Positions 6,001-51,700 of a DNA stretch of 64,000 nt are shown in pieces. The translations under genes and the position numbers were made by a program. This DNA comes from Tubulanus polymorphus (lineage: Eukaryota; Nemertea; Palaeonemertea; Tubulaniformes; Tubulanidae), in contig NC_134031.1 in the NCBI RefSeq assembly GCF_964204645.1, positions 4,757,001 to 4,821,000 on the forward strand, written 5' to 3'. Under the pieces are notes generated by a model. It was not told the origin of the DNA, searched no databases, and saw nothing but the letters and a program-made list of their open reading frames with translations. Within the stretch, counting starts at the first letter, position 1, and the number at the start of each line of letters is the position of its first letter.

Positions 6001-9000
6001 GTAACTAACGATATACTGCGCCAGGGTGTAGATGCACTATAGTGCTATTCCCGTTATTCAACACACTAGGGTGGAATTTTTCAAAATTTTCAAATTATCT
6101 CCAGCACTATAGGGTATTGATTAGTCAGCACTGAAAGGGTTAATAGAAATAACTTGTCATGTATCAGATAATTAGGTGGTTTATAAGCTGTAGAGGCTAT
6201 TTCCACAGGACGTACCAATTTCTTTGCAGAACGTTAATTCGATGCTCCTTAGTTTACTTGCAATGATCCTTCAAACGTGACCCTGTTTTCTGAAATTTCA
6301 GTTCCTCGAATAAAGACTTCGTAAAGTTTGTGAACATGTTGATGAATGACACGACGTTTCTGTTGGATGAAAGCCTCGATTGTTTGAAGAGAATACACGA
6401 AATTCAAGACACGTTGGAAAACACCGAGGAGTGGGAAAAACTTTCAAGAGTAAGTGTCATTCGTTTAACAGGTGAACGATCTGAGAAGAGATTTGTTGTG
6501 AGTTTACTTTTTTGGAAAAATTTGTGAAGGCCCTGATTTGTGCTTTTCACAAAATTGTCAATGAGTGCTGAAAAGTGCTTATTTTTGACTTGCGATCCAT
6601 CTGAAAAAATGTTTGTCACAGCGTTCATAATTCTGATTCTAGCTGTTGCCAAGCATCTTTACTTATAGGTAATTAATGTGTCCTAGTGCATGAATGATAT
6701 ATGTGATAGGTCCATAGATTATTGTTACGATTCAAAAAAGCATGATGAGCAGTTGCATCATGTCTATCATGGGCGCAACTCTTTTATCCACACCTCAAGT
6801 GCTGAGAAGTGCTTTCTTTCACGTAAGAGTTCCTGCTACCAACTGTTGAGTCAATTATCATAGGTCTCAATGGGTTTAACTGACGTATAATGGAATTTTT
6901 ACAGAATTTTCGTGATTCAGTGATGTTTCATTTCATATTGTTTAGGAACAGCAGCAGAGTCGCCAGCGACAGCTTTCTACCGACGAAAGACAGTGTCGAT
7001 CGTATTTAACACTCGCGTCAGAAACGGTAGAAATGTTCGATTATCTAACGGAACGCATTAAGAAGCCATTCCTTATTCCGGTGAGTTAGTGTTTATTGGA
7101 CGCAGTTTACAGTTGTCAGTTATGTCGAGATCAAAAGATTTTTCGATTATTTGATGCTTAAAACGAAGTTCAAGAATCGGAAAAGCGCATCATTATTTAT
7201 TTGTTAAGATGTAAAGAGACTTCTCCCTGTGGCCACAATCACTAAGTTTTGATTTGAAATCCTCTAAATACAGTCGACTCCATTTGCCTTGGATCTCTTG
7301 GGACCAATAAATTTACTCGGAGTCGAGTGAATTCTGGGGGAGTCAGGGCCACATCGCATGAATTTTGTTAGGAAGATTTTTGCTGTGCATGTGATAATCT
7401 AAGACTATCGCAACCGTAGCAAGCGGAGACGACTGTTTGTTATTTCGCGGTTTATTTCGTCACATTAAAACAAAGCTCGTCGTGTTCATCTTGCAGGGTC
7501 TGGCCGAACGTCTAGCCGCGATGTTGAACTTCAATTTGCAACAGTTGTGCGGGTCGAAGTGCAAAAACTTGAAGGTCAAAAACCCGGAAAAGTACGGCTG
7601 GGAGCCGCGCAAATTGCTCAACCAACTGACGAACATATACCTACATTTAGACTGTGATGACTTCGCGAAGGCGATCGCGAACGACGAACGATCGTACCGG
7701 AAGGCGTTATTCGACGACGCCATTTCGCGTATGGTGAAAGCTAACATTAAAACCGAAAGCGAAATCGCGCAATTCCGTAAACTGCAGGAAACGGTCGAAG
7801 ATCTCGTCGTCAAGAAAGCGAAAATGGAACGCGATTACGGCGAAGTTCCCGACGAATTCAAAGGTTGGTTTTTTTTTTTAAAGAAAGCTGCCGATGACTT
7901 CTTATTTTATGAATCGAGGGTGGCCACTCACCTAGAAATCGGAGAATTTTCTTTTCTTTTAAAAAGTCAGAGAATAGTCAGGGAATTTTGTAAAAAAGCT
8001 AAGAATCAGGTAAAAGTCTGGGGAAATATGTTGAGATAGTTATATCATGCGTAAAATGAAACAGATTCCATCTATATGACTGTGTTCATTGATTGGATCC
8101 TTAGCAGAAGTCAAGGAAAACAACATGCATTTCATGGAATAGTCAGGGGAAAAGCGAGTCAAATAAAAGTGGCCACCTTATCTTCAACAAATGAGATTAA
8201 ATCTGAGCATTTCGTGAAATAATACTGTCAACATTGCTCAAAATTTTGGATGATTTCAAAGCATTGGGGGTGAATAGGAAGTTAGCAAATTCAACTAAGC
8301 ATTAATAGAGATCTCTTAGCAAGGTTGTATCCGAGTTCAGTGAAGTTTTCCGTATGGTATTTGTTCTTGCACTCGATTGAACCGACCCTGACAGCTTGAA
8401 TAAGGTTTCACCAATTGCATTAAAATAACAACACTCGATATCCAGGCGTTAATCAGAATTTCTGTGTACGATTTCCTTGTTGTAGATCCTTTGATGGATA
8501 CTCTAATGAGAGAACCCGTATTACTGCCTACTAGCGGTAACATAATGGATCGTCCGATCATCATGAGACATCTACTGAATTCGCAGACGGATCCATTCAG
8601 TCGCCAACCGTTAAAAGAGGAAGATCTTCAACCAGGTATCTATTACAAATATCAGATCGGGACCCTGTCCAGGTTCGGATTTTTAATCAGCTCTCGCGAT
8701 TGGAAATGAATTATTTCTAACGCTTAAGTGTCGAACTGGTTTTGGTTTTTCAGACCAGTTCTTACTTAAAACCTGGTGTTACCCCATTTGACCTAACAGT
8801 TAACCTTGACTGAAAACTGGTCTATAAGGCTAAAGAAAATGATACCTTTTTTCTCCTAATCGGCTGGGTCATTTTCTGAACTGCAATAAAGTTTGTAATT
8901 AGTTCATTTCTATAACTGCCGGGTCTGTTATGGCTAACTTGATCATGACTTAAAAATAAGTAATGTACAGGGGAGATAGGCGGCCGAATAGGAGGCCGGG

Positions 9001-9214
9001 TCAAATTCTAAGCTCAGCAGAAATGAGAAACAAGGTATCAATTCTTTTTAGCTTTATAAACCCTTATATGAGAGCCAGTGTGCTAGAACTATATAATGAG
9101 CAGTTCTCGTTTCCATTCTGCCTGTAACGATTCTGATTTCTTGTCTCGTTTTTTCTAGTTCCAGAGTTGAAGGCAAAAATCGAAGCTTGGGTGAAAGAAA
9201 AGGAAACGTCTTGA
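1..9214 (+). CDS. UBE4B: UBE4B, ubiquitin conjugation factor E4 B (3' part, 20 exons)
   Basis: U-box E3/E4 ligase that extends ubiquitin chains together with an E2; known UBE4B partners include the p97/VCP ATPase. Exons read: 1-38 (partial), 123-267, 660-795, 994-1094, 1175-1289, 1447-1593, 1793-1909, 2234-2332, 2798-2911, 2999-3194, 3673-3914, 4155-4276, 4353-4451, 4906-5141, 5637-5763, 6302-6449, 6946-7080, 7497-7863, 8486-8635, 9159-9214. All are GT-AG and every junction keeps frame, giving 962 residues and a stop at 9212-9214. Family landmarks in order include [48 protein letters not shown] and [14 protein letters not shown] in the elongating core. The C-terminal U-box spans the last two exons ([15 protein letters not shown], then [14 protein letters not shown] and TDPFSRQ). 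The N-terminus lies left of the window. Introns hold many small transposons. Identity is very secure; the 1-38 exon is the least certain. Confidence 0.96.
300..655 (+). repeat. interspersed ~380-bp repeat, copy 1
   Basis: Shares an ordered set of blocks (GACTCCTT, AGTTGTACAGTA, GATTTAGGAG, GGGATATAAAAGTGATGCAGA) with 4505-4890 and 51585-51995. Shorter relatives lie at 1637-1735 and 41570-41760. It fills most of the UBE4B intron 268-659 and ends only a few bases before the 3' splice site. No coding capacity seen. Confidence 0.75.
1637..1735 (+). repeat. short internally deleted relative of the ~380-bp repeat
   Basis: Begins CAGGGTCCCTGACTCCTTGA and ends GGAACCCTGA, so it keeps inverted ends (CAGGGTCC with GGAACCCTG) and the CTCCTT blocks but lacks the middle. 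It sits in the UBE4B intron 1594-1792. Confidence 0.45.
2471..2722. mobile_element. AGGGTGGCCACT inverted-repeat element, copy 1
   Basis: Opens with AGGGTGGCCACT and closes with AGTAGCCACCCT, near-perfect terminal inverted repeats. It is about 250 bp, AT-rich and has no ORF, so a non-autonomous DNA transposon (MITE) is likely. It lies in the UBE4B intron 2333-2797. The second full copy is at 7917-8178. Confidence 0.75.
4053..4131 (+). mobile_element. fragment of the Penelope-like element family
   Basis: In the UBE4B intron 3915-4154. The stretch from TCACGATTGATAG through TCCGTGTTGACGCGATG and GAGAATCCCACAA to AAAGTCCGAAAATG matches the left end of the insertion at 49914-50497 with a few differences. 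It stops before the hammerhead segment, so this is a truncated or decayed copy. A weaker reverse-strand resemblance occurs at about 54530-54575 in XPR1 intron 6. Confidence 0.7.
4505..4890 (+). repeat. interspersed ~380-bp repeat, copy 2
   Basis: Same block order as 300-655, including TTGTACAGTAAACTACGCCT, ACAGTACTGATTTAGGAGGA and GGATATGAAAGTGATGCAGA. It occupies the UBE4B intron 4452-4905 and ends just upstream of the 3' splice site, as copies 1 and 3 do. Confidence 0.75.
5161..5271. mobile_element. small inverted-repeat element (GGGTCCAGTTCCAC)
   Basis: Left end GGGTCCAGTTCCACGGTT and right end GTGGAACTGGGTCC are inverted repeats around a palindromic GAGTTAACTC core. Decayed related sequence lies at about 5475-5575. 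It belongs to a loose superfamily of short foldback elements also seen at 10042, 29697, 39864 and 46403. It lies in the UBE4B intron 5142-5636. Confidence 0.65.
5852..6139. mobile_element. piggyBac-type MITE flanked by TTAA
   Basis: A 288-bp element starting CCCTTTCAGTGC and ending GCACTGAAAGGG, exact terminal inverted repeats, flanked by TTAA at 5848-5851 and 6140-6143. TTAA duplication and CCC ends are the hallmark of the piggyBac superfamily. No transposase ORF, so non-autonomous. The interior contains a CACCGCAGTGCGGTG palindrome. A reverse-orientation relative lies in XPR1 intron 9 (56567-56815). Confidence 0.85.
7917..8178. mobile_element. AGGGTGGCCACT inverted-repeat element, copy 2
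   Basis: Begins AGGGTGGCCACTC and ends AGTGGCCACCT; same family as 2471-2722. An internal block (CATTGATTGGATCCTTAGCAG) recurs at about 895-925 as a solitary fragment. It lies in the UBE4B intron 7864-8485. Confidence 0.75.
8486..9214 (+). other. UBE4B: UBE4B U-box coding exons
   Basis: Exon 8486-8635 carries almost the whole U-box, the RING-like fold held by salt bridges rather than zinc that recruits the E2. It starts DPLMDTLM after a codon split across the intron and ends at LQP. Exon 9159-9214 adds [18 protein letters not shown] and the stop. Intron 8636-9158 contains a TGATACC element (8840-9040). Only the last exon and its flanks, not the main U-box exon, were copied to 26.3-27.7 kb. 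Confidence 0.93.
8840..9040. mobile_element. TGATACC MITE, copy 1
   Basis: About 200 bp, from TGATACCTTTTTTCTCC to GAGAAACAAGGTATCA, forming terminal inverted repeats. Near-full copy at 59794-59983 and a left-truncated copy at 26330-26500. It lies in the last UBE4B intron. The duplicated UBE4B tail at 26.3 kb begins inside this element. Confidence 0.8.
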
Positions 9215-9546
9215 ATACCCGTGCATTTAGACATCGTATCATTTTCACTTAATACTTATATCTACATTATTTATTATTTACGATTCTTGTGTCGTTTTGC
9301 TTTAATTTTTCCTGATTGAAATAGAAATTGTCTCCTCTTTTTGTCTGATGATAATGTAAAAAAACCTATAAATGTCCTTCATTCTTTTCTTAGAAAACTT
9401 GAGAAAAATTTTCACAGATTTGCTGTATTTATTTTTCTGTGTGAATTTTCTACATAGAATAAGACTAGATATGGGCTGTCTTAGAGCCAAACATTTTTTA
9501 CTCTGCCCAACTCATTCAAATTTGAACTGAGAAAGCGCCATTTGCT

Positions 9547-9693
9547 AGGGCCGTATTTAGCAGGAAGGCAGTTGCACCCCTAGAAATTTTGGGAAAGTGC
9601 CCTTTTTGCAAGTATAATTGTCATATCCGATAGAACTGCCCCTTTTCGGATTTCTCCCCCCCCCCCTAAAATTAAAGTGCTAGTTACGGCCCT
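9547..9693. mobile_element. AGGGCCGTA MITE, copy 1
   Basis: Ends AGGGCCGTA and TACGGCCCT; about 147 bp with an internal poly-C tract. The duplicated flank at about 27010-27030 runs from GCGCCATTT into unrelated sequence without the element, so the locus exists with and without it. Second copy at 46564-46803. Confidence 0.8.
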
Positions 9694-10041
9694 GGTTGCG
9701 ATTATTTTTTGTGTCGGAATTGAAAAGGAACTAGTTTTTTTAATCCTCGATTGAGTCAACTGTGGAATTGAATCACACTCATCAAAAGAGTCTTCATTCC
9801 GCCGGTCTTAACCTGAATTTGATTTATGCGCAAGCGTTAAAGGAATGGGTTATTTTTTCGATCTGGCAGGAATTTAACTTACAAATTCCTCCTGAGATTT
9901 CGCTACATGTATTTTTCTCTAAGCTACAGTTTTATCAATCTCATTGGCTCATAGAAATCGGTACAATTACTGAAGTGTTCAACTAGATACATAGTTCAGG
10001 AGCCAGTTTTATAGATCAGTTTTAACTTTGAAACGCCTGCG

Positions 10042-12276: not shown

Positions 12277-13213
12277 TTATTTGAATATTTTTTCATATCA
12301 TATTAAACATATTTTTTTGAAAATATAAAATAGTTTCCCTGCCGTGCCTACCTGTACCCTACAAACTTTTAGACGTGGACCGCAAACAAATGTATATCTT
12401 TGGTCTTATTTGACTACAAAATAATTCTTTAGGAAAGATAAAATACAATATAAACTGTGGATCTTTGAAGTCACGAATTAAAAAGATTTTTCAAGCAATG
12501 CCCTTACTCCAAACAACCTCTAGCTTTCAAGGTAAACCACACTTTGCCCATGGGCAATTTATTTTGTATTCATTTCGATGGTTGTTATTATGCGCGACCC
12601 ACGTACAGTGTCCCTTCGTCGTTTCTTCACATCATCGCAAGTGCTGGATTGGCGCAAAATGTTTTGGATTCGAGGACAAGACCCACAATTCGACCGATAT
12701 GTTTTTGGCCATAGAGGAACATCTTATTACTGAGTAAAAACTAATGTTTGATTAAGGCAGTATATTATTATATATCATTTTGGCGAGATATTGGGGACAG
12801 GGGTTCATTTCAGTTGGAATCTAAAAGGTGGATTATGAAAATTTAGTTTAGACTATTATAAAAAGTCATTCGCCCTCTGACACCACCCGGCGTTCCCAAA
12901 ACAACTAGGGATATCCACGTGATTTGTAACACGGTATTTGGCGTGACCGTGTGCAATTAAGTAGTGTCGCAAGAGCTCCCATCAAACTCGGACAAACCAT
13001 AATGGACTCTGAAACCAGTTTCTTCAGAGTTCATGGACAAACATTGGAACCGGAGAGACGATCTCGTTGCAGCGGGCATTTGCATATATTACAAAGATAT
13101 GCGATACTCGCAAGAATATTGATTATGTGAATCTAACAAAACAAGCGAAAAGAACTAGTGTAAAAACTATTAAAGACAGAAAAATGAAGTCTTGTCTAAA
13201 AAACGTGCTTTTT

Positions 13214-13333
13214 AGGGCATCGGCCTCTTCTATGGCTTGTCGATGTCCTCTCTATGCATTGATTGCCATTATAATGTTTAGATTAATTATATGTAACTTA
13301 TTATGCTTAGATAAATAAAGATTATTATCATTG
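13214..13333 (+). mobile_element. 5'-truncated LINE-like insertion
   Basis: About 120 bp ending TAAATAAAGATTATTATCAT, the AATAAA plus ATT-rich tail common at non-LTR retrotransposon 3' ends. It is absent from the duplicate copy, where GTCTTGTCTAAAATAAGTAC runs directly into TTGCCTTTA (about 27560), an empty-site comparison. No coding part retained, so the clade cannot be named. Confidence 0.55.
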
Positions 13334-13440
13334 CCTTTAATGAAAAAAACGTACACGTTAATTCTGACCACATCAACAGGAACAAAGAACGACGTCGCCC
13401 TTGGAAATTGACATATGACACATCCTCTGTTTACAAGGAA

Positions 13441-16129
13441 ATGAAACGAAATTGTAATGAAAGAGAATTAATGGTAATTTCCGAAGTATTTCATTTATTC
13501 AAGATTCCAGATCACTTTGTCTCATCAGGTCCACCATTGATATTGTGATATATTGAAGAATTTCATATGATATGAAATGAAACGATGATATAAGCTTCAG
13601 TCAGGATTTATTATTGGATGAACTTTAACGTTCGTCGAACATATGGATATTTTTGGCTTTGCCTGTAATAAACTCGTTGATTGTAAAATTAATTTCATTC
13701 TTAGTTTTATTCATGATGGACTCTAGATAGTCCACAAAGATTCTATCGTAGTTTGTATATCAACGCAATCTGCATTCAATTAGCTGCGTTGAAGACTTTT
13801 TCACGTGCAATACTTTGGAAAAATAATTGGGGAAAACAACAAACTCGAGGTATCAGAAATTCTATCACAAAAAACTTATCGTCCAGTGTTTGAAGGGGTA
13901 CCAGGCATCAGATTGAAAGGCTCCGAGTGCTTAGCACGTGTTTCTTCTACAGTGTTTGTAAATATGATACTCGCTTCCCTGTGCATACTATCAATCATAA
14001 ATCGGTCAAACTTTAACTATCAGAAGATTATCCACAAAAGTTGTACCATGCCGGATCGAAATTGAATACCCTGTGTTTTTATAAGGCGTAAAAATAGAAT
14101 TATCCAAGAAGTATACCTGTGCGGATGGAATAAATGCGCCCTTCGTATAGACTGGTTGCCTTGAAGATAGAGACTGGTAACCAGTCTACCCTTAGTATAA
14201 AAGCGTACAGCAGACGTACATGGGCTGAATGTATAGTTGTGGTCACTGTTGCGCGAAATACGAACTAGACTTCAGACACACGGGCCACGACGCCGTGCCG
14301 AGCCGATCGTTCTTCGAATCAATCATCAAAACCTTACCTCTAAATGTTTACTACGAATGCGACATGGCCCGATGGTATTGAAAAGTTGAATCCCATGGAA
14401 CATCTATGAAAGTAAGCATGATTCTCGAATTTCGTCAAAACTAGAAATTATCATAATGAGATAAAATGTGTACATTGTATCAGTTTTGAGTTTGTTACTT
14501 GCTGTTCATTACACCAATCTCAAATTCTCAAACTCTTTAGGCAAAAACTGTGTTCAATTGTTCTTTTTTGAATTGATATATCTAATCTATCCCCAGAAAT
14601 ATTCAACATCAAATGTGTTCATCCATATTTAAAGCCTGTGTTTCATGGGTTTCATTCAATAGTGAAATTCGCTGTAAGATTCATGCAAATAACTATTATG
14701 TAGTATTGATTCAAGATGTTTCGAAGATATCATAATGTATAACTGTGGATAGCAACATTTCTTAAAATCTATTTGATTTTGTTCTGTGCACAGGTTCGCT
14801 GACTTCATGTGACATTACATGCTTCAATGAACTTCTATGAACTCAATGACGCGACCTTGAGGACATTGTTTGACAATAGCTAGAATGTTTCCAACTGAAC
14901 CACTGGTCCACACACAGAACTACATAACTGTATAATGTTTCAAAACTGATCCAATATGGTGAGTATAAACCATTTATATTTTTTTTGCAGTTTAAGGTAA
15001 TTAATTCTATCCTCCCTGGTTTTCATTTCTAAACTGATAGTATGAAAAGAACATAAGCCTTTTTGATAAGTCAAATAAGAAGCCCTCATGTGTACATTTA
15101 GGAACAAGCGCATTGAAGCGTTTTATCTCGGGTCATTCATAAACAAGTGATGGACTTTACCATTTATGCAGTTTGTGAAAGAATTTTAAAGGCATTTGAA
15201 GCATTGATATTTCTAATCAGAACCAGCAAGTTGATCTGATGAACATTTGTATTGTGGCCAGAAAAAACATTTGAAGTATTTAAAAGCAACGTGTATTGTT
15301 ATTAGTTATTACATATATAGCTTTTACTGTTTGAGTTGATGCATTTTGAAACGTTAACACAGAAAATTGGTACATGATACATTTAATCTTTCTTAGAATG
15401 ATATATTTATCTATCTTTTCACTGAAGGTATTTTGAATCTTTTTTCGCTGTAATTCTAAACATATTTCTTCATTTGGATTTTTTTCAATAATCATGATAT
15501 AACACACAAGCAACTAGATCAACATAATTTTTCGATATCGAGTATTGAGACTTTATTTTATGTAAAATTTATATTTCTTTCTTTCACGCGCTTGTCTATT
15601 CAAGATGAGCTCATGCAGAAACATTCTAAAACATATTTCGAAATGGTTTCTTGTCATTTTAAGGAAGCTATTTAAATGCAAACTTTTATGGTTATATTTA
15701 GCCATGAGTAATGCAAAGCAATCACTTCATCAGGACGCAATGTACCTTGTTTTAGATAAGAAAAAAGAACATAGACCCTTAAAGACAAGTCCAATTACAC
15801 ATATAAATGCTTTCATAATGATGATAATTATAAAATGATTATAATAATAATAGCAATAGTATTAATAGCAATCACAATAGTAACAGTAATCATAATCGTT
15901 AAGACAAATTCATGTCGCTCGTCAATTTTGAAGAAAGCAAAACGTTTCTATATCACTGGACAATCGCATCAACGGTTCATGGAGTATATCGTGTAAAAGA
16001 TTTTTTTAGGATATTTGTAGCATTTAAATTCCTAATCATCATAGCAAGCAACTTGAATTGATGTATGTTCATTTTGTAGTTACCTGTACAATACTATACA
16101 CATTTGAAAAAAACATGTGCCATATCTTT
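13441..16129. other. AT-rich intergenic DNA without a recognisable gene
   Basis: Contains a short perfect-ended hairpin at 14147-14188 (TAGACTGGTT pairing with AACCAGTCTA, same family as 33629-33760). A TATAAAAG at about 14198 is followed by a less AT-rich stretch to about 14400, a possible promoter for a non-coding transcript. A low-complexity AAT/ATA tract lies at 15836-15896. Degenerate relatives of the array monomer begin near 16100. ORFs here are short and AT-driven. Confidence 0.5.
14147..14188. repeat. short hairpin (TAGACTGGTT family)
   Basis: TAGACTGGTTGCC near the left end and GGTAACCAGTCTA at the right end form an inverted repeat around about 18 bases. Similar hairpins occur at 33629-33683 and 33701-33760. 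Confidence 0.6.
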
Positions 16130-17506
16130 AAATGGTGAAATCTTTTTTAGTTAATGAACAAAATGTGCACCTTTATGAGATGAAACCTCATTCCCTACTA
16201 AAAGATGAAATCTTAGACGAATAGCTACATGTTCGCAGTGAAATCTACAGTCACCTATGGTGAACATACAAAAATGGATCTGTTTTTGCGTTTCCTCTCC
16301 ATTTAAATGTTTTATCATCCTTTTCACTAATTTTTCGGCAGGTTTTGCAAGTCCCCTCTCTCTCTGCACTGTTTACAGCCCCGTTCAGATCATTCTGGTT
16401 TCAACCCAAGGATATTTATCAGGCCGTAATTGCTGAAACTTCAATTCTCGAAAATTTTCCGGTGATGATTCCAGAATTTAATACAATTTAGTGTAGGCAA
16501 TTACATCATTGGTTCATAGCATGACAGCACTCCCAGACTTCACAGACAAAATACGACACTATCAGCAATCATAATTCACTCATTTAAATTTGAAAAAAAA
16601 CAAATCGCGCCATTTTTAAGATGAAATCTCTGAAGATCGAATGACCAAAGTGCATCAAGACTACACAGTGTCAAGGTAGGTTTAAGTGCAAAAAATATGA
16701 GATCTTGGATGAATAACTACATCTCCTCATTATAATCTAGTGTCGTCAACTATGGCGACCACGAACATACATACAAAAAATGCATTTGTTTTTGGGTCTC
16801 CTCTCTCTCTTCTCTATGACTGATTTTTCAGCAGGTTTTGCAAGTCCCCTCTCTCTTTGCATTGTTTTAGGTCCAGGATCGTTCATTGGCTGGTTTCAGC
16901 CCAAAAAAAACTATATAATCATAATCGCTGATATTTAAAGGTGACAGCCCTCCCCAAAAAACCACACTACCAATAATCCTGCTTCACACATTTGATGAAG
17001 CCTCGCGCCATTTTAGTCGATGATATGTTATTGTATCCTTTAAAAATTTTGGGGAAAAAAACTCGCGCCATTTTTGAAGATGAAATCACTAAATAATAAC
17101 CATGCAAATTGTATCAAAACTACACACAGCGTCTTACATAATTTTGAATTGAATTGTACATTAGGGTTCTATCGCCTTTGATTCGCAGATAAAAGACCAC
17201 AGTGAAAGTACCCATACTCGATACATTTGATAAAAACAATAGCCATTTTATTAAATGAAAATCTACACCATTTGATTAGACAAAATCTCATGAATTACCG
17301 CAATACGTCGACATAACTACACAGTACCGATAAAAGGTACTTTACAGGTTTTAGATGACAGCACTCCCAAATCTCCCAAATTGAATTTTCATAGAATGCA
17401 GACAACATCAGAGCTGTATCGGGAATCTAACCCCACAGCCTGAAACCTTCACGGCCGCCAACCCGACTGCTGGCTTCAAGCCCGACTGTATGACGCTGAA
17501 CAGGAA

Positions 17507-17848
17507 ATGTATCGGTCAGACAGGGTCAGTTGGTGGTTTCCTGGCCTTAGTTTGATGAATCTTGCCAGTGTGCTCCGCCGGTGCGAGCCAGATACTGGTC
17601 CAGGGTTCACACGGTTTTCATCGGTAGGTCTGGGGAGGGGGCCAGACAATCCAGCACGGGCCGCTGTCGGGAGGAGTCAGCTAAAGTTAGTGAAGGGCTG
17701 CAACATTTCTCAGAAAGTCATTACATTTGGACCCTTTTTACTGTTTAATTTGACTTATTTGAAGCATTTGCACAGAAAATCAGTTTCGAAATCAACATAT
17801 TTACTTACGATGATACGCTTTGAAAAGTATCATTCGGGATATTTTTGA
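17507..17848 (+). other. 113-codon ORF in array unit 1
   Basis: Opens MYRSDRVSWWFPGLSLMNL and ends IRFEKYHSGYF. The first two thirds lie in a GC-rich island (about 17425-17700) within AT-rich repeat. There is no signal peptide, membrane segment or family I recognise. V22 is unique to this copy; the others have alanine. Near-identity among copies at DNA level means conservation of the ORF alone does not prove translation. Confidence 0.3.
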
Positions 17849-19290
17849 ACACATAATCTCTGATTAATTAGTTACGTTTTAGATTTTGGCAGACAACACT
17901 CAAACTTTACAGATAAATGTACAACTCAATCGCGCCATTTTTAAGATGAAATGTCACAGTGCATCATGACTACAGAACAGTAAGGTAGGTTTAAGCGAAA
18001 AGATGAAATCTAAGATGAATGACCACATACCCCCGGTGTAATCTACTGTCACCTATGGCGATTATCCATACAAAAATGGATTTGTTTTTTTGGTCACCTC
18101 ATCCTCTTTGACTGACTTTTCGGCAAGTTTTGCGTTGCAAGTCCCGTGGCCTATCTCTTGCACTTTTTTCAGTCCAGTTCAGGTCAGTTTGTTTTCAGCC
18201 CAAGGACATTTATCTGGTCATAATTGCAGAAACTTCAGTTAGTCCTCGAAAATTTTCCAGTGATGATTTCAGAGTTTAACACGATTTGGTGTAGGCAATT
18301 ACATCATCGGTTCATAGCATGACAGCACTCCCAGACTTCACAGACAAAATACAACACTATCAACAATCATAATTCACTCTCATCTAATTTTGAAAAAAAA
18401 ACAAATCGCGCCATTTTTAAGATGAAATCTCTGAAGATCGAATGACCAAAGTGCATCAAGACTACACAGTGTCAAGGTAGGTTTAAGTGCGAAAAATATG
18501 ACATCTTGGATGAATAACTACATCTCCTCATTATAATCTTGTGTCGTCAACTATGGCGACCACGAACATACATACAAAAAATGCATTTGTTTTTGGGTCT
18601 CCTCTCTCTCTTCTCTATGACTGATTTTTCAGCAGGTTTTGCAAGTCCCCTCTTTGCATTGTTTTAGGTCCAGGATCGTTCCTTGGCTGGTTTCAGCCCA
18701 AAAAAAACTATATAATCATAATTGCTGATATTTAAAGGTGACAGCCCTCCCTTAAAAACCACACTACCAGTAATCCTGCTTCACACATTTGATGAAGCCT
18801 CGCGCCATTTTAGTCGATGATATGTTATTGTATCCTTTAAAAATTTTGGAAAAAAAACTCGCGCCATTTTTGAAGATGAAATCACTAAATAATAACCATG
18901 CAAATTGTATCAAAACTACACACAGCGTCTTTCATAATTTTGAATTGAATTGTACATTAGGGTTCTATCGCCTTTGATTCGCAGATAAAAGACCACAGTG
19001 AAAGCACCCATACTCGATACATTTGATAAAAACAATAGCCATTTTATTCAATGAAAATCTACACCATTTAATTTGACATAATCTGATGAATTACCGCAAT
19101 ACGTCGACATGACACAGTACCGATAAAAGGTACTTTATAGGTTTTAGATGACAGCACTCCCAAATTGAATTTTCATAGAATGCAGACAACATCAGAGCTG
19201 TATAGGGAATCTAACCCCACAGCCTGAAACCTTCACGGCCGCCAACCCGACTGCTGGCTTCAAGCCCGACTGTATGACGCTGAACAGGAA

Positions 19291-19632
19291 ATGTATCGGT
19301 CAGACAGGGTCAGTTGGTGGTTTCCTGGCCTTAGCTTGATGAATCTTGCCAGTGCGCTCCGCCGGTGCGAGCCAGATACTGGTCCAGGGTTCACACGGTT
19401 TTCATCGGTAGGTCTGGGGAGGGGGCCAGACAATCCAGCACGGGCCGCTGTCGGGAGGAGTCAGCTAAAGTTAGTGAAGGGCTGCAACATTTCTCAGAAA
19501 GTCATTACATTTGAACCCTTTTTACTGTTTAATTCGACTTATTTGAAGCATTTGCACAGAAAATCAGTTTCGAAATCAACATATTTACTTACGATGATAC
19601 GCTTTGAAAAGTATCATTCGGGATATTTTTGA
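19291..19632 (+). other. 113-codon ORF in array unit 2
   Basis: Same frame and length as at 17507, with EPFLLFNST in place of GPFLLFNLT. Shares these variants with the copy at 24657, suggesting exchange or shared ancestry between non-adjacent units. Confidence 0.3.
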
Positions 19633-21083
19633 ACACATAATCTCTGATTAATAAGCTACGTTATAGATTTTGGCAGACAACACTCATTTTTTACAGATAA
19701 ATGTACAACTCAATCGCGCCATTTTTAAGATGAAATGTCACAGTGCGTCATGACTACAGAACAGTAAGGTAGGTTTAAGCGAAAAGATGAAATCTTAGAT
19801 GAATGACCACATGCCCCCGGTGTAATCTACTGTCACCAATGGCGATCATCCATACAAAAATGGATTTGTTTTTTTTTTTGTCACCTCATCCTCTTTGACT
19901 GACTATTCGGCAAGTTTTGCGTTGCAAGTCCCCTGGCCTATCTCTGCACTGCACTGTTTTCAGTCCAGTTCAGGTCAGTCTGTTTTCAGCCCAAGGATAT
20001 TTATCTGGTCATAATTGCAGAAACTTCAGTTAGTCCTCGAAAATTTTCCAGTGATGATTTCAGAGTTTAACACGATTTGGTGTAGGCAATTACATCATCG
20101 GTTCATAGCATGACAGCACTCCCAGACTTCACAGACAAAATACAACACTATCAACAATCATAATTCACTCTCATCTAATTTTGAAAAAAAAACAAATCGC
20201 GCCATTTTTAAGATGAAATCTCTGAAGATCGAATGACCAAAGTGCATCAAGACTACACAGTGTCAAGGTAGGTTTAAGTGCGAAAAATATGACATCTTGG
20301 ATGAATAACTACATCTCCTCATTATAATCTTGTGTCGTCAACTATGGCGACCACGAACATACATACAAAAAATGCATTTGTTTTTGGGTCTCCTCTCTCT
20401 TCTCTATGACTGATTTTTCAGCAGGTTTTGCAAGTCCCCTCTCTCTTTGCATTGTTTTAGGTCCAGGATCGTTCATTGGCTGGTTTCAGCCCAAAAAAAA
20501 CTATCTAATCATAATCGCTGATATTTAAAGGTGACAGCCCTCCCCAAAAAACCACACTGCCAGTAATCCTGCTTCACACATTTGATGAAGCCTCGCGCCA
20601 TTTTAGTCGATGATATGTTATTGTATCCTTTAAAAATTTTGGAAAAAAAACTCGCGCCATTTTTGAAGATGAAATCACTAAATAATAACCATGCAAATTG
20701 TATCAAAACTACACACAGGGTCTTTCATAATTTTGAATTGAATTGTACATTAGGGTTCTATCGCCTTTGATTCGCAGATAAAAGACCACAGTGAAAGCAC
20801 CCATACTCGATACATTTGATAAAAACAATAGCCATTTTATTCAATGAAAATCTACACCATTTAATTTGACATAATCTGATGAATTACCGCAATACGTCGA
20901 CATGACACAGTACCGATAAAAGGTACTTTATAGGTTTTAGATGACAGCACTCCCAAATTGAATTTTCATAGAATGCAGACAACATCAGAGCTGTATAGGG
21001 AATCTAACCCCACAGCCTGAAACCTTCACGGCCGCCAACCCGACTGCTGGCTTCAAGCCCGACTGTATGACGCTGAACAGGAA

Positions 21084-21425
21084 ATGTATCGGTCAGACAG
21101 GGTCAGTTGGTGGTTTCCTGGCCTTAGTTTGATGAATCTTGCCAGTGCGCTCCGCCGGTGCGAGCCAGATACTGGTCCAGGGTTCACACGGTTTTCATCG
21201 GTAGGTCTGGGGAGGGGGCCAGACAATCCAGCACGGGCCGCTGTCGGGAGGAGTCAGCTAAAGTTAGTGAAGGGCTGCAACATTTCTCAGAAAGTCATTA
21301 CATTTGGACCCTTTTTACTGTTTAATTTGACTTATTTGAAGCATTTGCACAGAAAATCAGTTTCGAAATCAAAATATTTACTTACGATGATACGCTTTGA
21401 AAAGTATCATTCGGGATATTTTTGA
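21084..21425 (+). other. 113-codon ORF in array unit 3
   Basis: Same frame and length; carries SKSKYLL where units 1, 2 and 5 have SKSTYLL, a variant shared with unit 4. Confidence 0.3.
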
Positions 21426-22869
21426 ACACATAATCTCTGATTAATAAGCTACGTTATAGATTTTGGCAGACAACACTCAAACTTTACAGATAAATGTACA
21501 ACTCAATCGCGCCATTTTTAAGATGAAATGTCACAGTGCATCATGACTACAGAATAGTAAGGTAGGTTTAAGCGAAAAGATGAAATCTTAGATGAATGAC
21601 CACATGCCCCCGGTGTAATCTACTGTCCCCTATGGCGATCATCCATACAAAAATGGATTTGTTTTTTTTTTGGTCACCTCATCCTCTTTGACTGACTTTT
21701 CGGCAAGTTTTGCGTTGCAAGTCCCCTGGCCTATCTCTGCACTGCACTGTTTTCAGTCCAGTTCAGGTCAGTCTGTTTTCAGCCCAAGGATATTTATCTG
21801 GTCATAATTGCAGAAACTTCAGTTAGTCCTTGAAAATTTTCCAGTGGTGATTCCAGAGTTTAACACGATTTAGTGTAGGCAATTACATCATCGGTTCATA
21901 GCATGACAGCACTCCCAGACTTCACAGACAAAATACGACACTATCAGCAATCATAATTCACTCTCATCTAATTTTGAAAAAAAGCAAATCGCGCCATTTT
22001 TATGATGAAATCTCTGAAGATCGAATGACCAAAGTGCATCAAGACTACACAGTGTCAAGGTAGGTTTAAGTGCGAAAAATATGACATCTTGGATGAATAA
22101 CTACATCTCATTATAATCTAGTGTCGTCAACTATAGCTACCACGAACATACATACAAAAAATGCATTTGCTTTTGGGTCTCCTCTCTCTCTTCTCTATGA
22201 CTGATTTTTCAGCAGGTTTTGCAAGTCCAATCTCTCTTTGCATTGTTTTAGGTCCAGGATCGTTCATTCAGCCCAAAAAAAACTATCTAATCATAATCGC
22301 TGATATTTAAAGGTGACAGCCCTCCCCAAAAAACCACACTGCCAGTAATCCTGCTTCACACATTTGATGAAACCTCGCGCCATTTTAGTCGATGATATGT
22401 TATTGTATCCTTTAAAAATTTTAGAAAAAAAAACTCGCGCCATTTTTGAAGATGAAATCACTAAATAATAACCATGCAAATTGTATCAAAACTACACACA
22501 GCGTCTTACATAATTTTGAATTGAATTGTACATTAGGGTTCTGTTGCCTTTGATTCGCAGATAAAAGACAACAGTGAAAGTACCCATACTCGATACATTT
22601 GATAAAAACAATAGCCATTTTATTAATTGAAAATCTACACCATTTAATTAGACATAATCGTATGAATTACCGCAATACGTCGATATAACTACACAGTACC
22701 GATAAAAGGTACTTTATAGGTTTTAGATGACAGCACTCCCAAATTGAATTTTCATAGAATGCAGACAACATCAGAGCTGTATCGGGAATCTAACCCCACA
22801 GCCTGAAACCTTCACGGCCGCCAACCCGACTGCTGGCTTCAAGCCCGACTGTATGACGCTGAACAGGAA

Positions 22870-23211
22870 ATGTATCGGTCAGACAGGGTCAGTTGGTGGT
22901 TTCCTGGCCTTAGTTTGATGAATCTTGCCAGTGCGCTCCGCCGGTGCGAGCCAGATACTGGTCCAGGGTTCACACGGTTTTCATCGGTAGGTCTGGGGAG
23001 GGGGCCAGACAATCCAGCACGGGCCGCTGTCGGGAGGAGTCAGCTAAAGTTAGTGAAGGGCTGCAACATTTCTCAGAAAGTCATTACATTTGGAACCTTT
23101 TTACTGTTTAATTTGACTTATTTGAAGCATTTGCACAGAAAATCAGTTTCGAAATCAAAATATTTACTTACGATGATACGCTTTGAAAAGTATCATTCGG
23201 GATATTTTTGA
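22870..23211 (+). other. 113-codon ORF in array unit 4
   Basis: Same frame and length; has TFGTFLLFN where unit 3 has TFGPFLLFN. The frame remains open despite indels elsewhere in the unit. Confidence 0.3.
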
Positions 23212-24656
23212 ACACATAATCTCTGATTAATGAGCTACGTTATAGATTTTGGCAGACAACACTCAAACTTTACAGGTAAATGTACAACTCAATCGCGCCA
23301 TTTTTAAGATGAAATGTCACAATGCATCATTCTACAGAACAGTAAGGTAGGTTTAAGCGAAAAGATGAAATCTTAGACGAATGACCACATACCCCCGGTG
23401 TAATCTACTGTCACCTATGGCGATCATCCATACAAAAATGAATTTGTTTTTTTTTGGTCACCTCATCCTCTTTGACTGACTTTTTCGGCAAGTTTTGCGT
23501 TGCAAGTCCCCTGGCCTCTCTGCACTGTTTCAGTCCAGTTCAGGTCAGTCTCTTTTCAGCCCAAGGATATTTATCTGGTCATAATTGCAGAAACTTCAGT
23601 TAGTCCTCGAAAATTTTCCAGTGATGATTTCAGAGTTTAACACGATTTAGTGTAGGCAATTACATCATCGGTTCATAGCATGACAGCACTCCCAGACTTC
23701 ACAGACAAAATACAACACTATCAGCAATCATAATTCACTCTCATCTAATTTTGAAAAAAAACAAATCGCGCCATTTTTAAGATGAAATCTCTGAAGATCG
23801 AATGACCAAAGTGCATCAAGACTACACAGTGTCAAGGTAGGTTTAAGTGCGAAAAATATGACATCTAGGATGAATAACTACATCTCCTCATTATAATCTA
23901 GTGTCATCAACTATGGCGACCACGAACATACATACAAAAAATGCATTTGTTTTTGGGTCTCCTCTCTCTTCTCTATGACTGATTTTTCAGCAGGTTTTGC
24001 AAGTCCCCTCTCTCTTTGCATTGTTTTAGGTCCAGGATCGTTCATTGGCTGGTTTCAGCCCACGAATATCTATCCAATCATAATTGCTGATATTTTAAGG
24101 TGACAGCCCTCCCTTAAAAACCACACTACCAGTAATCCTGCTTCACACATTTGATGAAGCCTCGCGCCATTTTAGTCGATGATATGTTATTGTATCCTTT
24201 AAAAATTTTAGAAAAAAAAACTCGCGCCATTTTTGAAGATGAAGTCACTAAATAATAACCATGCAAATTGTATCAAAACTACACACAGCGTCTTACATAA
24301 TTTTGAATTGAATTGTACATTAGGGTTCTATCGCCTATGATTCGCAGATAAAAGACCACAGTAAAAGTACCCATACTCGATACATTTGATAAAAACAATA
24401 GCCATTTTATTAAATGAAAATCTACACCATTTAATTAGACATAATCTTATGAATTACCGCAATACGTCGACATAACTACACAGTACCGATAAAAGGTACT
24501 TTATAGGTTTTAGATGACAGCACTCCCAAATTGAATTTTCATAGAATGCAGACAACATCAGAGCTGTATCGGGAATCTAACCCCACAGCCTGAAACCTTC
24601 ACGGCCGCCAACCCGACTGCTGGCTTCAAGCCCGACTGTATGACGCTGAACAGGAA

Positions 24657-24998
24657 ATGTATCGGTCAGACAGGGTCAGTTGGTGGTTTCCTGGCCTTAG
24701 TTTGATGAATCTTGCCAGTGCGCTCCGCCGGTGCGAGCCAGATACTGGTCCAGGGTTCACACGGTTTTCATCGGTAGGTCTGGGGAGGGGGCCAGACAAT
24801 CCAGCACGGGCCGCTGTCGGGAGGAGTCAGCTAAAGTTAGTGAAAGGCTGCAACATTTCTCAGAAAGTCATTACATTTGAACCCTTTTTACTGTTTAATT
24901 CGACTTATTTGAAGCATTTGCACAGAAAATCAGTTTCGAAATCAACATATTTACTTACGATGATACGCTTTGAAAAGTATCATTCGGGATATTTTTGA
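24657..24998 (+). other. 113-codon ORF in array unit 5
   Basis: Same frame and length; matches unit 2 at the EPFLLFNST variants. The unit is truncated about 1290 bp after this ORF by the junction with the duplicated UBE4B tail. Confidence 0.3.
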
Positions 24999-26329
24999 AC
25001 ACATAATCTCTGATTAATAAGCTACGTTATAGATTTTGGCAGACAACACTCAAACTTTACAGATAAATGTACAACTCAATCGCGCCATTTTTAAGATGAA
25101 ATGTCACAGTGCGACATGACTACAGAACAGTAAGGTAGGTTTAAGCGAAAAGATGAAATCTTAGATGAATGACCACATGCCCCCGGTGTAATCTACTGTC
25201 ACCAATGGCGATCATCCATACAAAAATGGATTTTTTTTTTTTTTTTGGTCACCTCATCCTCTTTGACTGACTTTTCGGCAAGTTTTGCGTTGCAAGTCCC
25301 CTGGCCTATCTCTGCACTGCACTGTTTTCAGTCCATTTCAGGTCAGTCTGTTTTCAGCCCAAGGATATTTATCTGGTCATAATTGCAGAAACTTCAGTTA
25401 GTCCTCGAAAATTTTCCAGTGATGATTCCAGAGTTTAACATGATTTGGTGTAGGCAATTACATCATCGGTTCATAGCATGACAGCACTCCCAGACTTCAC
25501 AGACAAAATACAACACTATCAACAATCATAATTCACTCTCATCTAATTTTGAAAAAAAAACAAATCGCGCCATTTTTAAGATGAAATCTCTGAAGATCGA
25601 ATGACCAAAGTGCATCAAGACTACACAGTGTCAAGGTAGGTTTAAGTGCGAAAAATATGACATCTTGGATGAATAACTACATCTCCTCATTATAATCTTG
25701 TGTCGTCAACTATGGCGACCACGAACATACATACAAAAAATGCATTTGTTTTTGGGTCTCCTCTCTCTCTTCTCTATGACTGATTTTTCAGCAGGTTTTG
25801 CAAGTCCCCTCTCTCTTTGCATTGTTTTAGGTCCAGGATCGTTCATTGGCTGGTTTCAGCCCAAAAAAAACTATCTAATCATAATCGCTGATATTTAAAG
25901 GTGACAGCCCTCCCCAAAAAACCACACTGCCAGTAATCCTGCTTCACACATTTGATGAAGCCTCGCGCCATTTTAGTCGATGATATGTTATTGTATCCTT
26001 TAAAAATTTTTGGAAAAAAAACTCGCGCCATTTTTGAAGATGAAATCACTAAATAATAACCATGCAAATTGTATCAAAACTACACACAGCGTCTTACATA
26101 ATTTTGAATTGAATTGTACATGAGGGTTCTATCGCCTTTGATTCACAGATAAAAGACCGCAGTGAAAGTACCCATACTCGATACATTTGATAAAAACAAT
26201 AGCCATTTTATCAAATGAAAATCTACACCATTTAATTAGACATAATCTTATGAATTACCGCAATACGTCGACATAACTACACAGTACCGATAATAAATTT
26301 TGAAAAAGAACTTGCGCCATCTTTAAGAT

Positions 26330-26500
26330 TTTATGTTTCTCCTAACAGATCGGGTCATTTGTGGACTGCAATAGAATACGTTAACAGTTCCTATCGGGTC
26401 TGTAATGGTTAGCTTGCCCATGACTTAAAATTAGGTAATGTACAGGGAAGAAAGGCCGGATCTACATTAAAGCTCATCAGAAAGGAGAAACACGGTATCA
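26330..26500. mobile_element. TGATACC MITE, copy 2 (left end lost)
   Basis: Interior and right end (GAGAAACACGGTATCA) match 8840-9040. The left terminal repeat is reduced to TGTTTCTCCTAA and abuts the last array monomer. It marks the left breakpoint of the duplicated segment. Confidence 0.75.
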
Positions 26501-26638
26501 TTTCTTTACATCATCATTTTTTTCATTTTCATACAGTCCCTAGAGAGCCAGTGTGTTAGAACTATTATAATAAGCAGTTCTCATTTCCATTCTCCCGGTA
26601 ACGATTCCTTCTGTTTTCTGATTCCTTGTTTTTTCTAG

Positions 26639-26702
26639 TTCCAGAGTTGATGGCGAAACTCGAAAAATCGAAGCTTGGGTGAAAGAAAAGGAAATTTCTT
26701 GA
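26639..26702 (+). pseudogene. UBE4B: frameshifted copy of the last UBE4B exon
   Basis: Preceded by the same TTTTTTCTAG acceptor as the functional exon at 9159. The coding text diverges after VPEL: an 8-bp insertion shifts frame and gives an early TGA, although the original KEKE..S stop context (GAAATTTCTTGA) survives out of frame. No upstream U-box exon is present here, so this is a dead exon copy. Confidence 0.85.
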
Positions 26703-27668
26703 ATACCCGTATCATTTTCACATAAACATGTATCTACATTATTTATTATTTACGATTCTTGTGTCGTTTTACTTAAACTTTTCCTGATTGAAATAGAAAT
26801 TGTCCGCTCTCCTTGTCTGATAATTATGTTAAAAAAACTATATCAAAATGTCCCTCATTCTTCTCTTAGAAATTTTTTTTTACAGATTTGCTGTTTTTAT
26901 TTTTCCGTCTGAATTTTCTGCATAAAATAGGACTAGATATGGGCTGTCTTAGAGCCAAACATTTTTTACACTGCCCGACTCACTCACGATTTGAATTGAG
27001 AAAGCGCCATTTTCATCGTTTGGAACTACCAGGTAATTGGTGAATCCTCGATTGAGTCAACTGTGGAATTGATCATTTCATTTCGTTCCGCCGGTCTTAA
27101 ATTTTATATATGCGTAAGCGTTTAAGGAATGGGTTTTCTTTAAATTTTGTAGGGTTATAACCTAGAAATTCCTGAGATTAGTGTATTTCATGTATTTCTC
27201 TGAGCTATAGATTTATCAGTCTCATTGACTCATAGAAATCGTTACAATTTTCAACTAGATACCTGGCTCTTGAACTATAGTTCAAGAGCCATTTTATAGA
27301 ACAGTTTTAACTTAAACAAGCAAGAGCTGCCTCGCATCAACAAACCATGGACATGGACAAACCATGGACTAGCCCGACTTAAGACTCGTCGATGTTTAAA
27401 GACCATTTAAGCAAACCAAACCACAGAGCTCTCGTTCTTAAAGGTACATATTACAAAACTATGCGATGTAAGAAATACAAGAATATTTTGTGAATCAAAT
27501 AAAACAAAGCGAATAAAAACTATTGAAGTCAGAAAAATGAGTCTTGTCTAAAATAAGTACTTTGCCTTTACTGAACAAAAAAAAACATACACGTTTATTT
27601 TGACCACTTATAGCAACAGAAGAACAAAGATCAATGTCGCCCTTGAAAATTGACATAATGACACATCT

Positions 27669-32507: not shown

Positions 32508-34300
32508 TGGGTATCGTTAAATGGCTGATCATGCTTTGGTCAAGGTTAACGCGTCCTGTTTTTCAGGTCAATCCTAATCGTGACCTGTGATTTTCGTTAA
32601 AATCCATCAGCGAAACCGAGAATCAACAACATCCTCCGGAACGACAAATTATCGTCGTCCACACATCAGAGATTATTCCCTGGAGTAAAACGTGACTAGT
32701 GTAAGAAGACTAAACAACGGGTTCGCGCGCGTATTGCCTTAATCAAGAAGGAAAGGGATCCCGTCGCATCGGCAATGCACGCGAGAATCGTATATTTTTG
32801 TTTTCTTTTGATTTTACTTAGCGCCGATGCCCGTAAAGCGGACAATTTTTAAAGCTTGAACAAAATATCAGACGTTTCTGAATTTTATTGTCGCGTCACA
32901 TCACGCGTATGTCTTTACAGCAGATATTTGTAGCCGCCATTGCCGAACGCCGCGGACAGTTGGTTGATGTCTAATAATCTCACTCGGTGCAGAATCGAAC
33001 GTGTTGATTTGGCTTTATCATCATTCAAATACCACCGGACATCATCGAATTAGCCGACATCGACGACATATAGATCTTATTAAACTAACTATCTTTCCAG
33101 GCCCAGTCGAAGGGGCTTCGGGGATAGCGAACGAACCCCATGATATGAAATAAGGGTTTCACAGTAGTCAAATTTGTATCTCATATTTATCAGTAAAATA
33201 ACATATTCACAGGCAGCATGAGATGGTTTGTAATAGACACTATATTAGTTTAGTTATAATTAACATTGCAGTCATCAGGGTTTAACAGTTTTAGCTTCAC
33301 CCCTAAAATTTTCAAAATATCCTTCAAAAGGTCAGTGTTAAAACATTCGGGTCACGATTTTTCAAAATTTTGATATGATTTTTATATTTTTTAGAAAATG
33401 AAAAGTAATCCATTCTCTGCTACAAATTTAGATTATCTAAAAAATCATATTCAAGATCTGTCATTTCTTTTTCAATATGAAAGTGCCCCCTTTTCACAGT
33501 TGAAAAGTGTCAACTCCCCTTCCCCCAAAAAATTAAGATCGGCACAGGCTGCTTCCCGTCACCCGTCAAGGGATTCGATCTTCGAACTCACTAGCTATAG
33601 CCGTTCCCTGGACCCTTTGACCTGGTGATTAGACTGGTTGCCTGCGTTCGCAAACTGAAGGTAGACACCGGCAACCAGTCTACATCGCGAGTCATTACTA
33701 GTAGACTGGTGACCGGTCTCTACCTTATTGAATGTGACAGTCAACCAGTCTATATCATTGCGCTTGTAATAAACGACATCAGGCTTCTGTTGGATTTCCC
33801 GTTAAATGGACCAATCAGCGAACGTTTTAGTGAACAAGGAAGAATTTCACAAGTTGATATATGACGTCATGCGCAAAAGTGCCAGTAATGGAACCACGCG
33901 GCGGGGGCTGGTGGAAGCGAGTTCGGGAGCGAAACTGGGTCCCTGGCAAGCGAGGATATCTTGGCCATTTCAAACTGTGAGATAATGCTCAAAGAAAATA
34001 TATTTCATTCTCGTATAGGTCTATACATCGAGATCTCTTTTCGAATAATAGAAAAATAAATGGTTTTAACCAGGGTGAAATTTTATTCTTTTATACGTGC
34101 GCCGATACAAATAGAAATCAGTATCATTGAAATCAATCTAAACTAAGAGAATCATTAAATCATTGATTCTTACTACAATTATTTTACAATTTATGGTCAG
34201 AAATAAACTCAGAAAGTAGATAATTTTAGGTTACAAAATGTTTATACCTCACTACAGTTTTGACAACGACTACAAGACAATATGAGTATGAATTTACATT
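32508..34300. other. intergenic region between the LRR and TRIM genes
   Basis: Apart from hairpins at 33629-33760, nothing with coding or repeat structure is evident. The ORFs at 33398-33864 are AT-driven or run through the hairpins. Confidence 0.45.
33629..33760. repeat. two adjacent AGACTGGTT hairpins
   Basis: AGACTGGTTGCC pairs with GGCAACCAGTCT (33631-33683). TAGACTGGTGACCGG pairs imperfectly with CAGTCAACCAGTCTA (33701-33756). Same family as 14147-14188. Confidence 0.65.
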
Positions 34301-48794: not shown

Positions 48795-51700
48795 ATGAAG
48801 TTTGCGGAACACTTGGGAGCCCATATAACGCCGGAATGGCGCAAACAGTACATCAACTACGAGGTAATTTCTGTTCGTTTCTCGCTTTTCATTTCGCCAA
48901 TTCTTTCAAAATCGTGCTAAGTATCGAAATGGAGCTACGCAATCCACGCGTTTTGTGTCTCCAAGGCTAGGCTTCTGCTCATAAGCGATCAGGAACCGTA
49001 AATTGACATTCGAACAAATCTTAACTCACCTCGCTCAGGTGATATGTAATAACCTGTCTCCGGTCCCGATCCCACCCGCTGTCACTGAATTTAATGAAGT
49101 TAGTGAAGAAAAAGGGTAGGGTTAGGCCCTAACAGAAATTCAAAAGGATATTGATTTGAGATCTTTCTTACCATCGAAGCGGTATCGATAGTCAGTCACT
49201 ACATATTCAGCGACACCTTATTTAAGGGCATGAATTTTTTATTGAACCTCCAAAATCTGCAAAACATTCATCAGTAATTATATGATGCATAGTACACGGA
49301 ATACTACATGGGAGTTCTATCAAATGATATTCAGTATATTACAAAATGATAAGTTCAGTGGTTGAAAGTCAAGAGAAAATACAAACAAATACATTTTTGT
49401 CGATCGCAATATTGACTTATTCAAGTACTGTCTGTATACTGGACGATCTAACAGGTAAACCCGAGATCTTATGGGTTACCCTTTCCTTTGTCTCCATATG
49501 GACAGCTAGATAATAATTCGTGTAGCCCTTTGTCTCTTTGGTGACCTCAGACAGTTGAAGAACTTCATGTTATAAAGTCTTTTTATCCTATTTTCGTGTT
49601 TCTTAACATTCGTTATCTAGGCATATCATTGATTCTATTACCCCAATATGCTAGCGGTCAAAATGTCACAGTAGGTCTAGTTGAAATGAATGGCATTGTG
49701 GATAAAGTCTTAACTTTATTTCTGTTATAGACTGGATTTCTACCTAATAAATAGGACAGATAAAAGACAAATTTGAAATGTTCCCATTCCTTGAATTAGA
49801 ATTATCCAAAGTCTTTCTTTTTCGCTTTCCTTTTCGCGATAAAACTTGATGTTTGATGTCTGTATGATGAGCTTTTGACGAGCTCAACTTGTCATGAAGT
49901 ATTGTATAGCCCTCACGATAGGTAAAACACAATATCCGTGTTGACGCGATGAGGAGAGAATCCCACAATGATAATAAAAAGTCCGAAAATGAAACTTCGA
50001 GATAGTAGTTTATTCAACGTTTCGACTATATCCTAATAGTCATCTTCAGGAATAATGAGATACTACAGAAATTATGAGATATATATACAATCCAGGGACA
50101 AAGAGACTAATTCAAGTAATCAGAGATGATACAAACTAAAGGAAAATTAACGTAGAAACAGTTACACGCTAAAATAGATTAAAGGGAAGCAAACTAAGGG
50201 GTGATTATAAACAACAATAGTGAGTATAAATATAAATGAAACTTAAAGTCAGTAGTAAAAAGAAAGACAAACTAAGGGGCACTAAATTAAAACAAAGGTG
50301 AATACAAGTTAAGTCAGAGACGAAATTGATGAGAGAACAAATTACAAATAATCAAAGGGGAATATATATCTCATAATTTCTGTAGTATCTCATTATTCCT
50401 GAAGATGACTATTAGGATATAGTCGAAACGTTGAATAAACTACTATCTCGAAGTTTCATTTTCGGACTTTTTATTATCATTGTGGGATTCTCTCCTCATT
50501 GTATAGCCCTATTCATCGAACATCGTTTATGGCTCATGTACCAGAAAACTCAGTTTTGATTTTTGTTTTTGGTTGGAATTTAGAAATAATATTTCGAGCC
50601 ATTTTTATCGAGAAAAAATCATGATGAATAAGACCCAATCAAAAATAAATGGTTTTGTTTAATTTAAATTGAAATTTTTGACCTGGGGACACCGCAATGC
50701 AACCATTCTATCAGAGAAAGAGTTTTAAATGCCTGACCCATGAGCTGTTGTAGGCCCTGAGACACGTTCTCATGTCTTTTATAGAAAATGAAAGAAATGC
50801 TGTACAAAGCACAAGAGGAACAGCCATCGCCGGAAGGTATCTTGAACAAATGTCTCAAGCCGCTGACTTCATATTGAATTTACAGAATGATAAATGATTA
50901 AATATTTAACATTGTTTGTACCCGTTGTCGGTCAATGGTGTTTTCTCATCATTTCAGAATCACATCCCAGCGCGATCGAACGTTATCTAGTTCGATTTCA
51001 TGACTATTTCCTTCACTTTTGTCAAAAAGAACTGGCAAAGATAAATACGTTCTTCTCAGGTAAATGATTGACAGATCATTAAAACACTTCTGATGATATA
51101 GTCAAATTTGAGAGGGTTTTTTGAAGATTCACAATACCCATTATCCGAAATTATGGAAAATATTAATCTGAATTCTTGTTTAGATGTATAGATACATGTA
51201 GGCCTATGTTCGTCAATTGTTTAAAATCAATTTCTCATTGTTTTCTCAGAAAAACTCGCCGAAGCGATTCGAAAATATTCGACGCTGAAAGCCGAATTGA
51301 TGTTACACCAAGAAGCGCAGAAACGCAATAAACAACATCACCACGGCAACAAGAACAAACAGGATCCGTCGTCACAGTTGCGGCACCGCAGCAGCGTGTT
51401 CGCGGTGCTCGAAGAAAAAGAGCAAGTCGTTCAAACTCGTAAAATGCACGATTTGAAATTGGCGTTCAGCGAGTTTTATCTCAGTTTGATCTTATTGCAA
51501 AATTACCAAACTCTCAATTTCACCGGCTTTCGAAAGATTCTCAAAAAACATGACAAGGTAATAATGGTATAAGTCTATGTACAGAGTCCCCAAAACTCAG
51601 TGATTTCTTAAAAACTCCTTTTAAACAGGAATTGCTTTTAAAAGTGCTTGAAACTCCTTTGTTTTGAACAAAATGCCCTCTCAATTTCTGAGAAATGGGC

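Follow-up and report, generated by a model that had tools for sequence, protein, structure and literature searches.

Higher-order repeat satellites, such as human alpha satellite, are built of units that each comprise several diverged monomers, the units being far more alike than the monomers within them. Repeats can also make up a functional transcript, as in Drosophila hsr-omega, whose RNA is a scaffold composed of repeats. Satellite arrays in euchromatin are broadly the topic of PMC11049206, and hsr-omega and satellite long non-coding RNAs (lncRNAs) that of the reviews PMC10505914 and PMC9032817; our literature search on composites of SINEs and satellites found nothing specific.

We found one tandem array in the window, by which we mean the whole stretch of 64,000 nucleotides of Tubulanus polymorphus that was analysed (C7:4757001-4821000). 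Long-period TRF and self-BLAST place it at 16200-26293 on the + strand, with ~5.6 copies of a ~1.79-kb unit, and TRF on the array gives a period of ~1793 with 96% matches. Cut in B-to-B register (segment B is listed below), full units measure 1777-1801 bp, which bears out the ~10-kb extent and the regular period claimed in the sequence-only reading. The flanks of the array bear genes, those in the window comprising Ufd2/UBE4-like, LRR, TRIM-like, COX5B and TPT-like exons, a content of animal type.

16605-18405, + strand: unit r1, 1801 bp, B-to-B register
18406-20196, + strand: unit r2, 1791 bp
20197-21988, + strand: unit r3, 1792 bp
21989-23765, + strand: unit r4, 1777 bp
23766-25564, + strand: unit r5, 1799 bp
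25565-26293, + strand: partial unit r6, 729 bp, without the GC-rich module
26296-26345, + strand: degenerate monomer word at the right edge, TTGCGCCATCTTTAAGAT

With higher-order repeat satellites this array shares head-to-tail units of several monomers and a likeness between units that exceeds the likeness within them. It differs from them in having fewer than six copies, in its gene-bearing region, and in a unit that is partly unrelated sequence and whose monomers have no single regular length. The array behaves like a higher-order repeat, yet it is composite, and its unit does not come whole from one monomer family. Like the euchromatic satellites that PMC11049206 takes as its topic, it is a tandem array that probably lies outside heterochromatin, but it shares a 1.5-kb left flank with its genomic relatives. 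The likeness to hsr-omega and satellite lncRNAs lies in tandem repeats that come after a putative promoter-exon-intron-exon head, and the difference in a repeat unit that varies between the loci of the family.

Four CGCGCC-type words per unit restart segments in a fixed order (A at 17930, B at 18406, C at 18800 and D at 18859), as had been noticed in the letters themselves.

17930-18405, + strand: segment A (example); further A starts at 19714, 21507, 23293 and 25080
18406-18799, + strand: segment B (example); further B starts at 16605, 20197, 21989, 23766 and 25565
18800-18858, + strand: short segment C (example)
18859-19030, + strand: segment D (example), right end approximate

Since shuffled controls average 88% identity under free-end-gap alignment, segment identities were taken from local alignment, scored against the best of 300 shuffles. 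A unit devoid of internal similarity, which was to have spoken against the earlier reading, is not what was seen: A and B inside a unit are 82.6% identical over 356 aligned bases (score 281 vs a shuffle maximum of 74), and B and D score 103 vs 65. A and D align at chance level (52 vs 60), while C and D, at 28 vs 24, are at most barely over chance, C being too short for firm placing. Judged by these alignments, the sub-monomer relationship is firm for A, B and D and weak for C. Across units, like-positioned segments reach 97.2% (A), 97.6% (B) and 96.8% (D). In a tree that covers five loci with 197 monomer cores, the window's A segments form a clade with a support of 0.994 that includes the orthologous C6 copy, the C and D clades have supports of 0.994 and 0.98, and the window's B segments group with two C6 copies only, at a weak 0.64. 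Alignments and tree thus place segments of the same position in different units closer together than neighbours within a unit, the very pattern that had been named as support for a higher-order logic. This homogeneity (97% vs ~82%), together with the position-specific clades of A, C and D, supports a composite higher-order repeat.

The final ~500 bp of each unit (e.g. 19180-19710) is centred on a GC-rich module, and this part shows no relationship to B and D and a chance-level score against A (74 vs 72, local alignment). The idea of a unit built from related sub-monomers consequently holds for A, B and D, weakly for C, and fails for the module part.

19187-19431, + strand: GC-rich module, common to ~15 other loci
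17403-17647, 20980-21224, 22766-23010 and 24553-24797: further module copies in the window

The module occurs at ~16 loci, with five copies in the window, seven on C12, three on C1, incomplete ones inside the C5 and C11 arrays and single copies elsewhere. At many loci its left boundary is fixed and its right end variable. Its reverse complement contains GGTTCGAATCCC, which resembles a tRNA B box. We rejected two candidate identities for these sequences, a coding exon array and a known non-coding RNA or tRNA. A coding exon array finds no backing in the 134-aa module frame, which has no Pfam match, or in the putative head exons, which when hand-translated share no frame between loci. As for a known non-coding RNA or tRNA, Rfam and ARAGORN searches returned no known RNA match, and 14 module copies give no stable consensus structure, their joint fold being weak at about -16 kcal/mol for both strands. 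A tRNA-derived SINE would call for a tRNA-related head, and the module offers the B-box-like word only, with no ARAGORN or Rfam match at E values up to 5.

Divergence between array units is 1.5-3.0%, with 27-50 substitutions between full units, and among the 22 sites that set two units against three the groupings change along the unit in conflicting blocks (2+5, 2+3, 2+5, then mostly 3+4). Such a mosaic is what gene conversion or unequal exchange should leave behind. It also bears on the suspicion that the copies are an assembly artefact, few-copy kilobase repeats being typical sites of assembly error. We consider this explanation very improbable in view of the substitutions and mosaic blocks, the presence of unit-specific singletons, the distinct array edges, and several independent arrays of the family elsewhere in the genome; on the sequence, an assembly duplication as the source of the copies is disfavoured.

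To the left, the array passes into older sequence and a region that is common to several loci, here called the head.

13785-15365, + strand: head, common to loci on C3, C4, C5, C6, C11 and C12 (weakly C9), ~8 loci
15150-15294 and 15997-16079 (within 15150-16080), + strand: old diverged repeat copies that resemble C5 array units
16200-16604, + strand: A-type segment at the left edge, degenerate; identity ~83% with other units and 93% with the C6 copy
8850-10028, + strand: old direct repeat, left copy, 73.7-76.8% to 26336-27313
26336-27667, + strand: old direct repeat, right copy, part of which matches 13086-13424

Further degenerate words extend left of the array to ~16117. The left edge had been described as decayed monomers, which is correct for this A-like stretch and these words but leaves out the shared head. 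Window positions 14230-16200 match C6:10026216-10028211 at 93%, and between the degenerate first unit (16200-16815) and its C6 counterpart identity is again 93%, vs only ~83% to the window's other units, which suggests that it is an older unit predating the C6/C7 duplication. The old direct repeat brackets head and array, so the locus has been duplicated at more than one scale.

We sought relatives in the 268-Mb, 77-contig assembly, and the search for other arrays, proposed along with the first observation, was productive: related monomers and modules form arrays of differing build on C1, C5, C6, C11 and C12. Monomers of the A/B/D type are arrayed on C6, where a 22-kb stretch has 122 related core words, and on C11, with 48 such words; array periods are 521 on C1, 762 on C5, and 425/700/1127 and 1665 on C11. 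Growth from an older monomer, as had been proposed, is supported by the diverged monomers at the locus, but the monomer is not confined to it, given the arrays on C6 and C11. The C3 locus carries the head, followed directly by an A-tail, B and the module start, in a single copy and in the order of the window, and this unamplified unit indicates that the composite order is older than the amplification. The C6 relative (C6:10026216-10029902) holds fewer than two units; it has a 2-kb left flank and the degenerate first unit in common with the window, both at 93%, and a further ~1.1-kb stretch of unit that is 94.5-95.1% identical. A second higher-order array lies at C12:2890500-2906500, with ~1766-bp units that each contain ~3.4 copies of a 111-bp subrepeat and the GC-rich module.

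We judge the window array likely to be a short, non-coding composite higher-order tandem repeat that arose by local expansion of an old composite block through unequal crossing-over and gene conversion. This reading builds on the array and its composite unit, the homogeneity of same-position segments, the mosaic variants, the one-copy C3 relative, and the short C6 relative with its shared left flank. The old block would have been single-copy at first, a monomer in two or three diverged copies with the GC-rich module after it; unequal crossing-over may then have amplified it at the window locus to ~6 copies, which unequal exchange and gene conversion could have kept alike. The array probably has no function. 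Head and array are CpG-poor (0.85 and 0.76) with raised TG/CA (1.27 and 1.24), and the array at C11:8.87 Mb is the exception among related arrays, most of which show this too; the pattern is compatible with a methylated repeat. The depletion suggests methylation in the germline, whether of a repeat or of a transcribed body.

The latter possibility leads to a competing interpretation, in which a small lncRNA gene family has its promoter and initial exons in the head and the arrays are repeat-rich transcribed bodies, similar to hsr-omega. In an alignment of the heads, putative GT donors and a putative AG acceptor are retained (in the window ~14412, ~14793 and ~14959), with donors GTAAGT/GTAAGC, the acceptor GTGCACAG/GTTCGCAG and the donor GGTGAGTA. 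A core word resembling TAGTTGTGGTCACTGTTGCGCGAAATACAAACT is retained as well, and the window and C11 heads also have TATA-like words. Several head loci bear their own arrays, which come after the head in the same orientation. These splice-like and core-promoter-like sites count against a functionless repeat, and the CpG signature of head and array would fit a transcribed, body-methylated gene as well. The low number of head loci (~8) is small for an inert repeat, and the likeness of the module to its consensus (76-94% across loci, although the surroundings differ) could mean constraint. The identity along the head (66-93% across loci, roughly 66-78% for C3, C4, C5, C11 and C12) is nearly even, however, with putative introns as conserved as putative exons, the C6 copy has a disrupted first donor, and the C3, C5 and C12 heads lack the TATA word. 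Moreover, the C4 heads are found within a cluster of duplicated HES genes and have no array of this kind. The promoter and exon-intron-exon character of the head is suggestive only, and we regard the lncRNA family as improbable. Its stronger form, about eight dispersed non-coding genes with a promoter-like head whose bodies each expanded independently into their own array from a common kit of monomers and modules, is decidedly improbable; if true, such independent expansion would suggest that selection favours repetitive RNA and not a particular repeat sequence. Should the heads be transcribed, these loci would form a natural series for asking whether selection keeps repeats in repeat-bodied RNAs.

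The arrays could also be repeats inside a non-autonomous, Helitron- or SINE-like transposon of low copy number, with the module as its mobile piece, as its boundary pattern and the B-box-like word might indicate. The 5' homology boundaries of the head vary from locus to locus, though, and termini common to copies, as a Helitron or other DNA transposon should have, were not found in the loci compared; the homology boundaries differ at each of them, which argues against a transposon with fixed ends, and common target duplications of the whole were likewise not found. With its few copies and the absence of tRNA likeness in ARAGORN and Rfam, we think this origin quite unlikely.

Understood as a composite higher-order repeat, the array is a small version of satellite growth of a well-known kind, in which about eight distant loci with a common left flank are mildly notable. 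One genome displays stages of this growth, namely the single-copy composite on C3, the short C6 copy and the six units of the window, with the monomer-type arrays on C6 and C11 as a further stage.

Several minor observations accompany these results. Over window positions 14000-26300, CpG observed/expected is ~0.75 with TG/CA raised, vs ~1.5 across the neighbouring LRR gene, so that this stretch resembles a methylated domain. On C4, the sequence that matches the head is flanked by tandem HES-type bHLH genes, identified from the bHLH and WRPW motifs that their translations show; C4:22108500-22118499 contains at least three such HES/hairy-type genes at ~3.2-kb spacing, with partial head copies between them. 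A short hairpin element, TAGACTGGTTGCC...GGTAACCAGTCTA, occurs in the window at 14148-14188 and 33630-33682 and also at the C5 and C6 loci, in the C6 copy exactly at the homology boundary. Bordered in the window head by CCCTTCGTATA/CCCTTAGTATA and missing from C3 and C11, it looks like an insertion with a target duplication of ~9-11 bp. Finally, the window contains a perfect 138-bp inverted repeat (49949-50086 and 50362-50499, loop 275 bp), and a relative of it, at 92-94%, adjoins the C6 copy (~C6:10030687-10031099), which points to a dispersed element.
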